DNA from: Aliiroseovarius marinus
Lineage (GTDB): Bacteria; Pseudomonadota; Alphaproteobacteria; Rhodobacterales; Rhodobacteraceae
DNA: 64,000 nt
Direction of reading: 5' to 3'
NCBI RefSeq assembly: GCF_004360145.1
Contig: NZ_ML178712.1
Location: forward strand, 476,179-540,178
The position numbers and the translations under genes are program-made. How positions within the stretch are numbered: position 1 is the first letter of the stretch; each line of letters begins with the position of its first letter. The notes under the pieces were generated by a model. That model had not been told where the DNA came from, did no database searches, and worked only from the letters and a program-made list of their open reading frames with translations. Of this stretch, positions 4,327-24,036 are shown one piece after another.

Positions 4327-5742
4327 ATGACGGAACAGCAAACAGACCCGGCCACTGACGCCGCCGTTGGCAGCCAGCACCGCAGCTGGGTGCGACTACG
4401 TACGCTGATCCTGCTGCGCTGGGCAGCGATTGCGGGTCAGATTGTGGCAATTGCCGTTGCGGTTCAGTTCTTTACGGTCCAAATCCCGTTCGGGCTGGTG
4501 TCCGCCACCATCGGCATTGCAGTGATCGCCAACCTTGTGTCCAGCACGCTGTTCCCGCGCAACACGCGCCTGAATGAACGTCAGGCGACCGGCATTCTGG
4601 TCTTTGACACGCTGCAATTGGGTCTGATGATGTTGCTGACCGGCGGCATCCACAACCCGTTCATGGTGCTGATCCTTGCCCCGGTAACCGTTGCCGCGAC
4701 CGCGTTGTCGACTCGCTCGACCATTATGGTGGGGGCTGTGGCCATCGCGGCCACCAGTCTGGTCACGTGGGTCAATATTCCGCTTCAGACTGCGACGGGC
4801 GTTCTGCAGATGCCGGACCTGTTCGTTTTTGGCCTGTGGGTCTCGGTCACGATCTCGGTCGGCTTTATTGGTCTCTATACCCGCCGAATTTCGTCCGAGA
4901 TGCGCTCGATGTCCGAGGCGCTTCTGGCCACCCAAATGGCCCTGTCGCGCGAGCAGAACCTGACCGATTTGGGCGGCGTGGTCGCTGCTGCTGCACACGA
5001 ACTGGGCACCCCGCTGGCGACGATCAAGCTGGTCTCGTCCGAGCTGGTCGAGGAACTGGACGGCGATGACGAGCTGCGTGACGACGCCCGCCTAATCGGC
5101 GAGCAGGCCGACCGCTGCCGGGACATTTTGCAATCCATGGGCCGCGCCGGCAAAGACGACATGCTGGTCAAACACGCCCCCCTGATCGCCCTGATCGAAG
5201 AGGCCGCCGAACCCCACCGCGAACGCGGCAAGGCGCTGGAAATCGAGATCACCTGCACCGAGGCCGATCCCTTGGATCAGCCCATCCTGATGCGCCGGCC
5301 CGAGATCATCCACGGGCTACGCAACCTAATCCAGAACGCGGTGGATTTCGCCTCGACCAAGGTCTGGATCGAGCTGTGCTGGAATGACGAGCGCATCACC
5401 ATCCGCATTCTAGACGACGGCAAAGGGTATTCCCCGCAGGTTCTGGGCTGGATCGGAGACCCCTTCATCCGCCGCCGCAAATCGCAGGCCGAGCATGGCC
5501 AACGGCAGGCGTACAAAGGCATGGGGCTGGGCCTGTTCATCGCCAAGACATTGCTGGAACGCACCGGTGCCACGCTGCATTTCGCCAATGCCTCGTCGCC
5601 TTATACTGGCCGCCCCCACCCGCGCGAAAAATCGGGTGCCATTGCACAGGTGGAATGGCGGCGCGACACACGTGGGCTCGAGGCCAAGAACACCAGCGGC
5701 GCGCTGGGCGAGAACATTCACTTCACCCACGACGCAGGCTGA
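4327..5742 (+). CDS. regB: Redox sensor histidine kinase RegB (PrrB/ActS)
   Basis: Sensor kinase partner of RegA. The 471-aa product has six likely membrane segments in the first 185 residues, including the quinone-sensing heptapeptide GGIHNPF at 106-112. The H-box HELGTPLATIKL has phosphorylated His224, and the redox-active cysteine is at Cys264 in QADRCRDIL (R. capsulatus Cys265). The N-box is GLRNLIQNAVDFA and the ATP-lid glycine boxes are DDGKGYSP and GMGLGLFIAK. All residues needed for redox sensing and catalysis are present. Followed after 113 bp by the DivL-like gene. Confidence 0.96.
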   Translation: MTEQQTDPATDAAVGSQHRSWVRLRTLILLRWAAIAGQIVAIAVAVQFFTVQIPFGLVSATIGIAVIANLVSSTLFPRNTRLNERQATGILVFDTLQLGLMMLLTGGIHNPFMVLILAPVTVAATALSTRSTIMVGAVAIAATSLVTWVNIPLQTATGVLQMPDLFVFGLWVSVTISVGFIGLYTRRISSEMRSMSEALLATQMALSREQNLTDLGGVVAAAAHELGTPLATIKLVSSELVEELDGDDELRDDARLIGEQADRCRDILQSMGRAGKDDMLVKHAPLIALIEEAAEPHRERGKALEIEITCTEADPLDQPILMRRPEIIHGLRNLIQNAVDFASTKVWIELCWNDERITIRILDDGKGYSPQVLGWIGDPFIRRRKSQAEHGQRQAYKGMGLGLFIAKTLLERTGATLHFANASSPYTGRPHPREKSGAIAQVEWRRDTRGLEAKNTSGALGENIHFTHDAG

Positions 5743-5773
5743 AAACCCCTTGAAAACAAGACGTTCAGCCCGA

Positions 5774-5788
5774 TTAAACCTTCATTAA
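5774..5788. promoter_or_regulatory. Predicted CtrA-binding box (TTAA-N7-TTAA)
   Basis: TTAA at 5774-5777 and TTAA at 5785-5788 are separated by exactly 7 bp, which fits the full CtrA site known from Caulobacter and Rhodobacterales. The right half continues as TTAACC. Two closely spaced extra half sites follow at 5799-5810. The box lies about 68 bp before the start of the DivL-like gene, between regB and that gene, where a promoter is expected. CtrA binding is inferred. Confidence 0.6.
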
Positions 5789-5855
5789 CCACACCGGCTT
5801 AAGGTTAACCCGTTGATAACGCGGGTGGCAGACCGCCGAAACGACAGGTGTGGAC

Positions 5856-7439
5856 ATGATGAATACTCTTTACGCGGTGGGGCTGGTGCTGACGGCCCTG
5901 ACGATCTCGATCGCAGCGCTTTACATCCTTTCCGTGCTGGACCCGGCGCGGGATCGCAAGCTGCGCAAGCGGACTTCGCAGGAAAAAGACAGCGTCGTGT
6001 TTCTGTTCGACGATCAGATGCTAACCGACGTGACCCCGGCGGGGCGTCAGATTCTGGATGCGCTTCCGCGGCACAACTCCGGCTCTGACTGGCAGCATCT
6101 ATCGCAAATCCTGGAAGCGCGCTTTCCCAACCTGTCCGACCAAATCGGCGAACTGGCCGAGCTTGGCACGCTCTCGATCCCCTCGACTGACGGGGCGCAT
6201 CGCATTGACGCGGAATGGCGCGACGGGCTGGCGCGGATCCACTTGGTAACCGCTGGCACCGAGGGCGCCGATCCGATTGTCGACCGGGTCAGCTTTGACG
6301 CCATGCGGGACGAACTGGACGGGCTGCGAGCCATTGCGCATCACGCGCCCGTCATGATGTGGCGCGAAGACGCGAACGGCAAAATCACATGGGCCAACAA
6401 GACTTATCTGGATCAGGCCGCCGACCCCGACACCTCGGACGAGGTCGCCAGCTGGCCCCCACAAAAGCTGTTTGACCGGCCCCGGCTTGAAGATGCCAAA
6501 AATCTGGAAACCCCGCGCCGCGTGGCCGTCCAGCTGCCCACCGATGGTGAACGCCACTGGTTCGAGCTGCACGACGCCCCCTTGGGGACCGAGATCCTGC
6601 TGACCGCCATCCCCGTGGATCGCGTGGTGAATGCCGAGAAATCACGGACTGAATTCGTCTCGACCCTGACCAAAACCTTCGCGCATCTTCCCATCGGGCT
6701 GGCCATTTTCGACCGCAAACGGCAATTGACCCTGTTCAACCCGGCCCTGACCGACATTCTGGCGCTGGATGCCTCGTTTCTTGTTGGCAAACCCACGCTG
6801 TTTACCTTCCTCGACCGCCTGCGCGAGAAGCGGATGATGCCGGAACCCAAGGACTATGTCTCGTGGCGGCAACAGATGGCGGATCTGGAAAGTGCCGCCG
6901 TGAATGGCACCTACGAGGAAACGTGGTCCCTGCCCACAGGCCAGACCTATCGCATCACCGGGCGCCCACACCCGGATGGCGCTGTGGCCTTCCTGTTTGA
7001 AGACATCACCTCGGAAATCTCGCTCACCCGCCGCTTCCGCCGCGAGCTTGAGATGGGCCAATCCGCGCTGGACTGTATCGAGGACGCGATTGCCATCTTC
7101 TCGCCCGGTGGGGTGCTGTCCATGTCGAACGCGGCCTATACCAAGCTGTGGGGCAATGATCCGTCCACCACGCTTGAGGATATCAATCTGGGCGACGCGA
7201 TCCGCACTTGGCGCGGCACCGCTGGCGACACGCCGGTCTGGCGCATGCTGAAAGAATTCGTGGCCGCCCATGGCGAACGTCAAATGTGGTCCGACCATAT
7301 CGCCCTTCTAGATGGACGGCAGGTCGACTGCCATTTCGTCCCCTTGGTGCGCGGCGCCACAATGGCCCGCTTCCACGTCCGCCCCGCCCAGCGCGAGTTT
7401 CAGCCTGCGCCGAATTCCGCCATGCATTTGACCCCCTGA
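5856..7439 (+). CDS. DivL-like membrane PAS-domain protein without kinase domain
   Basis: A 527-residue protein with one N-terminal membrane segment (about residues 3-24) and several PAS-like modules (about 155-245, 275-385 and 390-510). The C-terminal third ends in a PAS module: no H-box, N-box or ATP-lid motifs follow, so it is not an autokinase. In R. capsulatus the PAS protein DivL, which acts on the CckA-ChpT-CtrA phosphorelay and gene transfer agent production, is also a reduced protein, and I think this is its counterpart. The start is uncertain: GTG 5850, ATG 5856 or ATG 5859; AGGTG best suits 5856. A CtrA box lies upstream. Confidence 0.75.
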   Translation: MMNTLYAVGLVLTALTISIAALYILSVLDPARDRKLRKRTSQEKDSVVFLFDDQMLTDVTPAGRQILDALPRHNSGSDWQHLSQILEARFPNLSDQIGELAELGTLSIPSTDGAHRIDAEWRDGLARIHLVTAGTEGADPIVDRVSFDAMRDELDGLRAIAHHAPVMMWREDANGKITWANKTYLDQAADPDTSDEVASWPPQKLFDRPRLEDAKNLETPRRVAVQLPTDGERHWFELHDAPLGTEILLTAIPVDRVVNAEKSRTEFVSTLTKTFAHLPIGLAIFDRKRQLTLFNPALTDILALDASFLVGKPTLFTFLDRLREKRMMPEPKDYVSWRQQMADLESAAVNGTYEETWSLPTGQTYRITGRPHPDGAVAFLFEDITSEISLTRRFRRELEMGQSALDCIEDAIAIFSPGGVLSMSNAAYTKLWGNDPSTTLEDINLGDAIRTWRGTAGDTPVWRMLKEFVAAHGERQMWSDHIALLDGRQVDCHFVPLVRGATMARFHVRPAQREFQPAPNSAMHLTP

Positions 7440-22242: not shown

Positions 22243-22686
22243 ATGATCCGTAGATTTGGCGCTCCGAAGCAAAGAAATCAGGCCTACACTCCGCGTCCGG
22301 GGGCCTATGCGATCCTTGTACACGGGCAAGATCTGCTGCTGACCCATCAGGGTGGTGCGTTCGACGAATACCAGCTTCCGGGCGGCGGCATTGATGCTGG
22401 GGAAAGCCCGATTGCCGCCCTGCATCGTGAAGTGATGGAGGAAACCGGCTGGACCATCCGCAATCCGGTGCGGTTGGGCGCCTATCGTCGGTTCACCTTC
22501 ATGCCGGAATACGACCTGTGGGCCGAAAAGATCTGCCACATTTTTCTGGCAGTCCCCGTTCGGCAGATCGGTGCACCAATTGAACCGGACCATACCCCGA
22601 TCTGGAGTACCGCCCCCATCGCCGCAAAGATCCTGCACAGCGCGGGCGACCGGCATTTCGTCCAGACCTATGTCGGGGACTTGTAA
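22243..22686 (+). CDS. Nudix hydrolase, substrate unknown
   Basis: A small Nudix protein (147 aa) with a complete box: GGGIDAGESPIAALHREVMEETGW at about residues 46-69. It lacks other domains; it may cleave (deoxy)nucleoside triphosphates or similar diphosphate compounds, but no subgroup motif fixes this. Divergent from hslO, and its last 19 bp overlap the convergent PP2C phosphatase gene. Confidence 0.85.
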   Translation: MIRRFGAPKQRNQAYTPRPGAYAILVHGQDLLLTHQGGAFDEYQLPGGGIDAGESPIAALHREVMEETGWTIRNPVRLGAYRRFTFMPEYDLWAEKICHIFLAVPVRQIGAPIEPDHTPIWSTAPIAAKILHSAGDRHFVQTYVGDL

Positions 22687-23963
22687 GTCACCATCACACA
22701 GGACAGATCATCGCCGAATTCTTCCCCGCCGGTATAGCGATCCAGATCCCAGACCATCGCGTCAAACAGCATCTCGTTTGTCAGGCCGCTGTTTTGCTCG
22801 AGGATCTCGCCAAACCCTTGTTCTTCAATCTGTTCTTTCTGTGTGTTTTCGCATTCCGTGAAGCCGTCTGAATAAAAGATCAGCCGCTCTCCGGGATACA
22901 AATTCAGGGTTTGGCGTTCGAACTCTGCCGCCGAAATTAGGCCGATCGGCATTCCGCCATCCCCGATGAATTGCGCCCGGCCGGATCGGTTCAGGATCAC
23001 AGCATTTGGGTGCCCGCATTGGGTAAACTCCACGTGGCCCGTGGACATGTTCAGATAGCCAAACAACATGGTAAAATAGTGCTCGGACAGCATGTCCTTG
23101 GTCAGAAGCGTGTTCAGCTGGGCCGCGACCATTTCCGGAGGTTGGCGGCGGTGGTCGCCATCTTCACGCTCGATCAAGGCAATGTTGTGCGTGGGCGACC
23201 CTTCGGACAGGTAGGACGCAAGCCGCGCAGTCAACAGCGCCGAGGCGATCCCATGCCCGGACACATCAATGGAATAGAACGCGATGTGGTCTTTTCCGGC
23301 GTCAAAGAACCCCACCAGATCGCCGCCCACATGGCCGCAGGGCTTCAACAGCACGGACACTTCCGCCCGGCCCCAGTCGCGGAACGATTCCCGCACCAAG
23401 GACTGCTGCATCTTCCGCGCCTCGACCAAGTCACGATCCAGCGAATCATAGAGCGTTTTCAGCTCTGCCAGCGCCGAGGACACCAGCCGGTTGGTTTCCT
23501 GAAGCTCCCGCTCCATCGACAGAATGCGCCCACCCGCCGCGATCCGCGCACGCAGTTCATCCGGATTGAAGGGTTTGGCCAGGAAATCGTCCGCCCCCAC
23601 ATCCAAACCGCGCGCCACCGCGTCTTTGTCGGATTTCGACGTCAGCAGGATGAAATAGACATAGCCCTTCGCATTGTACGCCCGAATAGCCTTACACAGC
23701 TCCAGCCCGTCCATACCGGGCATCATCCAGTCGCTCAGAACCAGATCGAAATCATGCGCCGAGAATAACTTGATCGCCTCCAGCCCCGACCCGGCCTCGG
23801 TCACCTGATAGCCTTGTTTTGCCAGTGATCGCGACATCAGGCTGCGTTGGGCGCGGCTGTCGTCAACGACCAGGATGCGCTGAATCGAATCAGGCCGCAC
23901 CGCGTTGTTTTGCGCGGTATTTGTGCGGATTGCCTCAGTGTTATGTGGTTTTGCTACGCCCAA
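22668..23963 (-). CDS. Receiver-PP2C (RsbU-type) serine phosphatase, RbaY-like
   Basis: A 431-aa response regulator. The receiver at about 28-145 has phosphoacceptor Asp78 (LSDWMMPGMDG) and Lys in AKPFNPDE. A coiled-coil linker at about 150-195 leads to a C-terminal PP2C/SpoIIE phosphatase with GGDLVGFF, DVSGHGIASALL, SDGFTECEN and GDDLSCVM. Such proteins dephosphorylate an anti-sigma antagonist in a partner switch. R. capsulatus RbaY, which acts in the RbaVW pathway controlling gene transfer agent genes, has this architecture, so orthology is likely but inferred. The best start is TTG 23963 behind GGGG; a later GTG is at 23900. Divergent from an Hpt gene across a CtrA box. Confidence 0.85.
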   Translation of the reverse strand: MGVAKPHNTEAIRTNTAQNNAVRPDSIQRILVVDDSRAQRSLMSRSLAKQGYQVTEAGSGLEAIKLFSAHDFDLVLSDWMMPGMDGLELCKAIRAYNAKGYVYFILLTSKSDKDAVARGLDVGADDFLAKPFNPDELRARIAAGGRILSMERELQETNRLVSSALAELKTLYDSLDRDLVEARKMQQSLVRESFRDWGRAEVSVLLKPCGHVGGDLVGFFDAGKDHIAFYSIDVSGHGIASALLTARLASYLSEGSPTHNIALIEREDGDHRRQPPEMVAAQLNTLLTKDMLSEHYFTMLFGYLNMSTGHVEFTQCGHPNAVILNRSGRAQFIGDGGMPIGLISAAEFERQTLNLYPGERLIFYSDGFTECENTQKEQIEEQGFGEILEQNSGLTNEMLFDAMVWDLDRYTGGEEFGDDLSCVMVTYKSPT

Positions 23964-24021: not shown

Positions 24022-24036
24022 TTAACAGGTCTTTAA
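24022..24036. promoter_or_regulatory. Predicted CtrA-binding box (TTAA-N7-TTAA)
   Basis: TTAA at 24022-24025 and TTAA at 24033-24036 are separated by exactly 7 bp. A further half site, TTAA, lies at 24039-24042, and a TTAACC lies close to the Hpt gene. The box is in the 157-bp divergent gap between the receiver-PP2C gene and the Hpt gene, about 59 bp and 85 bp from their starts. CtrA binding is inferred from the consensus. Confidence 0.6.

Follow-up and report, generated by a model that had tools for sequence, protein, structure and literature searches.

The window, the 64-kb stretch of DNA that was analysed as a whole, carries on its forward strand the gene for the redox sensor kinase RegB (regB, 4327–5742; 689 bits against NF045988, cut-off 570) and, as its downstream neighbour, divL (5856–7439), which encodes a PAS-domain protein without a kinase domain. 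The listed divL open reading frame opens at GTG 5850; ATG 5856 corresponds to residue 3 of the query, and many DivL proteins of relatives have an ATG start at the matching position. Searches against Pfam and NCBIfam return PAS families alone up to an E-value of 0.001, with no histidine kinase domain. The short DivL of Rhodobacterales is likewise described with PAS domains (PMC9430884), and the prediction of Brilli 2010 (PMC2877005) also concerns a DivL lacking the kinase domain. Among the best 80 of 120 stretches, the closest named locus is L012, whose DivL-like protein shares 99% identity with that of the window; the source is accordingly an Aliiroseovarius-like genome of the Rhodobacteraceae. 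In an R. capsulatus genome (locus L077), the gene adjoining regB encodes a protein 46% identical to the window DivL over residues 47–511. Four published R. capsulatus divL primers (PMC9143464) map to the regB-divL gap and the gene at L077 with zero or one mismatch and in the right orientations, and since these primers were made for rcc00042, we regard rcc00042, the divL gene studied in R. capsulatus, as orthologous to the window gene. The genome also encodes CtrA (432.4 bits against NF045991, cut-off 350) and a ChpT-family protein.

The gap between regB and divL contains an exact match to the CtrA box TTAA-N7-TTAA, TTAAACCTTCATTAA, at 5774–5788 on the forward strand, followed by CC. The box begins after a gap of 31 bases from the regB stop codon and is separated by 67 bases from the divL ATG. 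The sequence-only reading had reported this box together with TTAA half sites within 5799–5808, and all are present, the latter at 5799–5802 and 5805–5808. It had also counted at least two such boxes in the window, more than expected: exactly two are found (5774 and 24022), and the expected number, which it put at 0.16, is 0.06 per window by dinucleotide shuffling, with two sites reached in 0 of 100 shuffles. Across the 3.13-Mb genome there are 11 TTAA-N7-TTAA sites; the nine perfect boxes outside the window (L001, L004–L011) adjoin open reading frames.

Conservation of the box was assessed in two sets of relatives, which overlap partly and are not independent. The named set comprises 79 loci, namely the best 80 of 120 stretches less L044, which has no upstream DNA. 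In all 79 loci regB lies directly upstream of divL, with gaps of 40–130 bases. A perfect box is present in the gap in 77 of the 79, R. capsulatus L077 included, and the remaining two have one mismatch; elsewhere in the same 79 loci (898 kb) there is no perfect box. The genus set takes one genome per genus. DivL was matched in 160 of 179 genomes (1e-40), and of the 159 matching genomes besides that of the window the 149 listed were used, with regB detected upstream in 143 of the 149. A scan that opens 20 bases ahead of the regB stop codon and extends 230 bases beyond it finds a perfect box in 128 of these 143 genera and a box with at most one mismatch in 141. When the spacer is set to other lengths from 2 to 13, the same 143 stretches give 0–4 perfect matches and 8–44 with at most one mismatch; averaged over mononucleotide shuffles of the stretches, the counts are 0.31 perfect matches (never above 2) and 6.4 when one mismatch is allowed. 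Where the sequence-only reading had proposed comparing orthologous promoters, with lack of conservation as a refutation, the box thus proves to be conserved at both the locus and the genus level.

Five further divL genes of the genus set have 2.7 kb of upstream DNA in which regB is undetected, and all five retain a perfect box, so that the box seems to go with divL rather than with regB. Inspection adds seven perfect boxes in total to the 128, giving 135 of 149 genera: these five, one in G071, which has only 184 upstream bases at a contig end, and one in G056, tallied as a one-mismatch box among the 143 owing to a misplaced regB end. In G142 and G041 no box is found at divL even with one mismatch allowed, though ctrA is present in both with a CtrA-like promoter site. 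Among the 179 genomes, 13 have no CtrA match (1e-70), 19 have no divL match (1e-40) and 11 have neither, while eight have a CtrA match and no divL match at these thresholds; because these are threshold calls on related genomes, the shared absence of ctrA and divL is not an independent test. The two genomes with divL and no CtrA match, G026 and G183, both nevertheless carry a perfect box. G026 contains a CtrA-like fragment (106 positions, 208 bits); in G183 (L236), which is 99% complete, nothing convincing as CtrA is found, the best full match having an E-value of 4e-45.

When the upstream sequences are aligned on the box, the flanks are near random except for partly kept spacer bases, an extension of the repeat to TTAACC(A/T)T and a downstream pair consisting of an A and, four bases on, a T. 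The pair lies at offsets 27/31 or 28/32 from the box start in 107 of 134 genera, a count that leaves aside G071, whose stretch is too short, and in 73 of 77 named loci; begun at offsets other than 26–28, the same test finds a pair in 4–16 of 134 genera. We read the pair as positions −11 and −7 of a −10 element, in which case the box would start at about −38/−39. In the window, the predicted −10 element is TAAGGT at 5800–5805 (+), with the A at box start +27 and the T at +31, and the position of this element points to a transcription start at 5812 (+), with the first base of the box at −38. A simple sigma-70 scan of 5650–5900 returned no promoter, but shuffled sequences average just 0.1 on the same scan, so that this negative carries no weight in either direction.

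This geometry also bears on the extra TTAA half sites. The predicted −10 element occupies 5800–5805 and overlaps the first of them, and it explains the TTAA at 5799–5802. Specifically, TTAA is retained in L013 and lost in the other three of the four closest relatives, where the counterpart reads CTAAGGT (L012), TTAGAGT (L014) and CTAGGGT (L015), and the position behaves as a −10 element; we therefore reject 5799–5802 as a further CtrA site, contrary to the sequence-only reading. The TTAA at 5805–5808 opens a one-mismatch repeat, TTAA-N7-ATAA, at 5805–5819 (+), which has a counterpart in L012–L015 and may be a weak second box.

A link between CtrA and divL is known. For Rhodobacterales without DivJ-PleC-DivK, both cckA and divL were predicted to be CtrA targets by Brilli 2010 (PMC2877005). 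Wang 2014 predicted a site in the promoter of the Dinoroseobacter shibae divL (Dshi_3433) and found divL to be down in ctrA, cckA and chpT mutants (PMC4046655); this is another genus, and the sequence and position of its divL site are not given in the text section. In R. capsulatus, Fogg 2019 found divL to be significantly lower in ctrA knockouts (PMC6363796); the passages concerned mention no CtrA site for this gene, whereas the orthologous locus L077 has the perfect box noted above. A co-expression study of R. capsulatus assigns rcc00042 to a module that is lowered in ctrA mutants and not in cckA mutants (PMC4158056), and another paper, in the passages considered, names CtrA sites at ctrA and cckA and not at divL (PMC6473078). 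A literature search for "divL promoter" combined with CtrA returned no paper. The genus-level conservation and the −10 geometry are absent from the cited passages. In particular, Brilli 2010, in the part considered, scores binding sites in representative genomes, whereas the present comparison samples each genus by a single genome, is controlled by other spacers and by shuffles, and adds a predicted −10 position.

The proposal of the sequence-only reading, that CtrA governs a protein which modulates CtrA phosphorylation, gains support from the conserved box, its activator-like spacing and the fall of divL in ctrA mutants of relatives. Counting against it are G142 and G041, with ctrA and no divL box, G183, with the box and no convincing CtrA, the eight genomes that match CtrA and not divL, and the omission of divL from the CtrA sites named in the passages considered of PMC6473078. 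The box is very probably a CtrA site that activates divL, and the short DivL would in turn promote CtrA phosphorylation through CckA and ChpT, giving positive feedback. Specifically, CtrA would sit across the −35 region of the divL promoter and activate transcription from the promoter with the −10 element TAAGGT. The PAS-only DivL would then raise CckA kinase activity, as orthologues are reported to do (DivL enhances CckA kinase activity in R. capsulatus; PMC9143464, citing Westbye 2018), and higher CckA activity would raise CtrA phosphorylation through ChpT. The net sign of the resulting CtrA–DivL–CckA–ChpT–CtrA loop would thus be positive. The present analysis shows that the box exists, that it is conserved with a strict spacer, that a −10-like element lies at a fixed distance from it, and that the genome encodes CtrA and a ChpT-family protein; the lower divL expression in ctrA mutants and the effect of DivL on CckA come from papers on orthologues.

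The sign of the effect would follow from where the box lies in the promoter. In Caulobacter, where transcription starts were mapped (the divL start here is a prediction), promoters with a full TTAA-N7-TTAA motif whose first base lies near −35 are activated, as the divL promoter would be; a full motif at −39 is activating and one at −14 repressing, and CtrA sites near the start or the −10 element accompany repression (Zhou 2015, PMC4287350). CtrA could in principle bind the divL box and repress the gene in this second manner. However, by the −10 geometry the box starts at about −38/−39, an activator position, and divL falls, rather than rises, in ctrA mutants of two relatives, so that repression is very unlikely.

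We give equally little credence to use of the box by a different protein, such as Fnr/Dnr or CenR, that recognises TTAA-like or direct-repeat sequences. A Dnr/Fnr site in D. shibae has a TTAAC half-site in common with that of CtrA, and binding of FnrL adjoining divL has been suggested in R. capsulatus (PMC7232146), but the element conserved upstream of divL repeats its half-site across a strict 7-base spacer and is not TTAAC-N4-GTCAA. Furthermore, the same type of repeat occurs at ctrA promoters, where binding of phosphomimetic CtrA is reported for R. capsulatus (PMC6363796). CenR was rejected as a reader of the repeat, its published motif being TGA-N8-TGA (PMC9275681). An origin of the box by chance or AT-richness, or as part of the regB 3′ end just 31 bases upstream, is scarcely credible given conservation far above that of shuffles and other spacers and the persistence of the box at all five divL genes without a detected regB.

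Besides the favoured reading of the divL box as an activating CtrA site, other CtrA-like promoters were compared. The second exact match in the window (24022–24036, +) lies between a REC-SpoIIE gene (22668–23963, −) and an Hpt gene (from 24121, +); for D. shibae, a predicted CtrA site is listed at the Hpt gene Dshi_3484 (PMC6473078). Of 30 loci drawn from 46 matching genomes, the window's own included, 29 have a box with at most one mismatch ahead of the REC-SpoIIE gene, three of them perfect (again with the own locus included), and 23 of the 30 show TTCA-N7-TTAA in the direction of that gene. At ctrA, the promoter in this genome (L261, 1433–1449) has GTAA-N7-TTAACC, the same arrangement as the GTAAC-N6-TTAAC of the R. 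capsulatus ctrA promoter (PMC6363796). Among 40 of the 165 other matching genomes (the 39 best listed plus G142, picked for having no divL box), GTAA-N7-TTAA is found in 39, at 63–86 bases before the ctrA ATG, and the same 40 genera have a perfect TTAA-N7-TTAA at divL in 34 cases. The gafA promoter of R. capsulatus has TTAAC-N6-GTAAC (PMC6363796).

The promoters of chpT-family genes (L263, L334–L362) had been chosen to serve as a negative control; 39 of 41 genomes gave a match, and 30 of the loci were scanned. One of the 30 carries a perfect box and 17 carry a perfect or one-mismatch box, versus no perfect box and 0–6 of 30 with at most one mismatch for other spacers, and chpT promoters were therefore rejected as a clean negative control. 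Many of the CtrA-like repeats upstream of chpT lie at about 170–250 bases.

A possible new point is that each CtrA promoter appears to retain its own left half-site, TTAA at divL, GTAA at ctrA and TTCA at REC-SpoIIE/Hpt. Because the half-site differs by promoter yet is kept across genera, tuned affinities are suggested. On this basis we raise, tentatively and with more doubt than confidence, the idea that CtrA promoters carry a promoter-specific, Rhodobacteraceae-wide left half-site code that sets a fixed order of affinity, in which divL would respond first and prime CckA before ctrA activates itself. If half-site variants do set affinity, sequence would predict the switch-on order of CtrA targets, and, if the code holds, divL, with its perfect repeat, would respond to the least active CtrA.

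Published work connects the CckA-ChpT-CtrA relay of Rhodobacteraceae with motility, with gene transfer agents and with quorum sensing. The conservation of the divL box would mean that a feedback edge into this relay is conserved in most of the sampled genera and is not peculiar to two model species.
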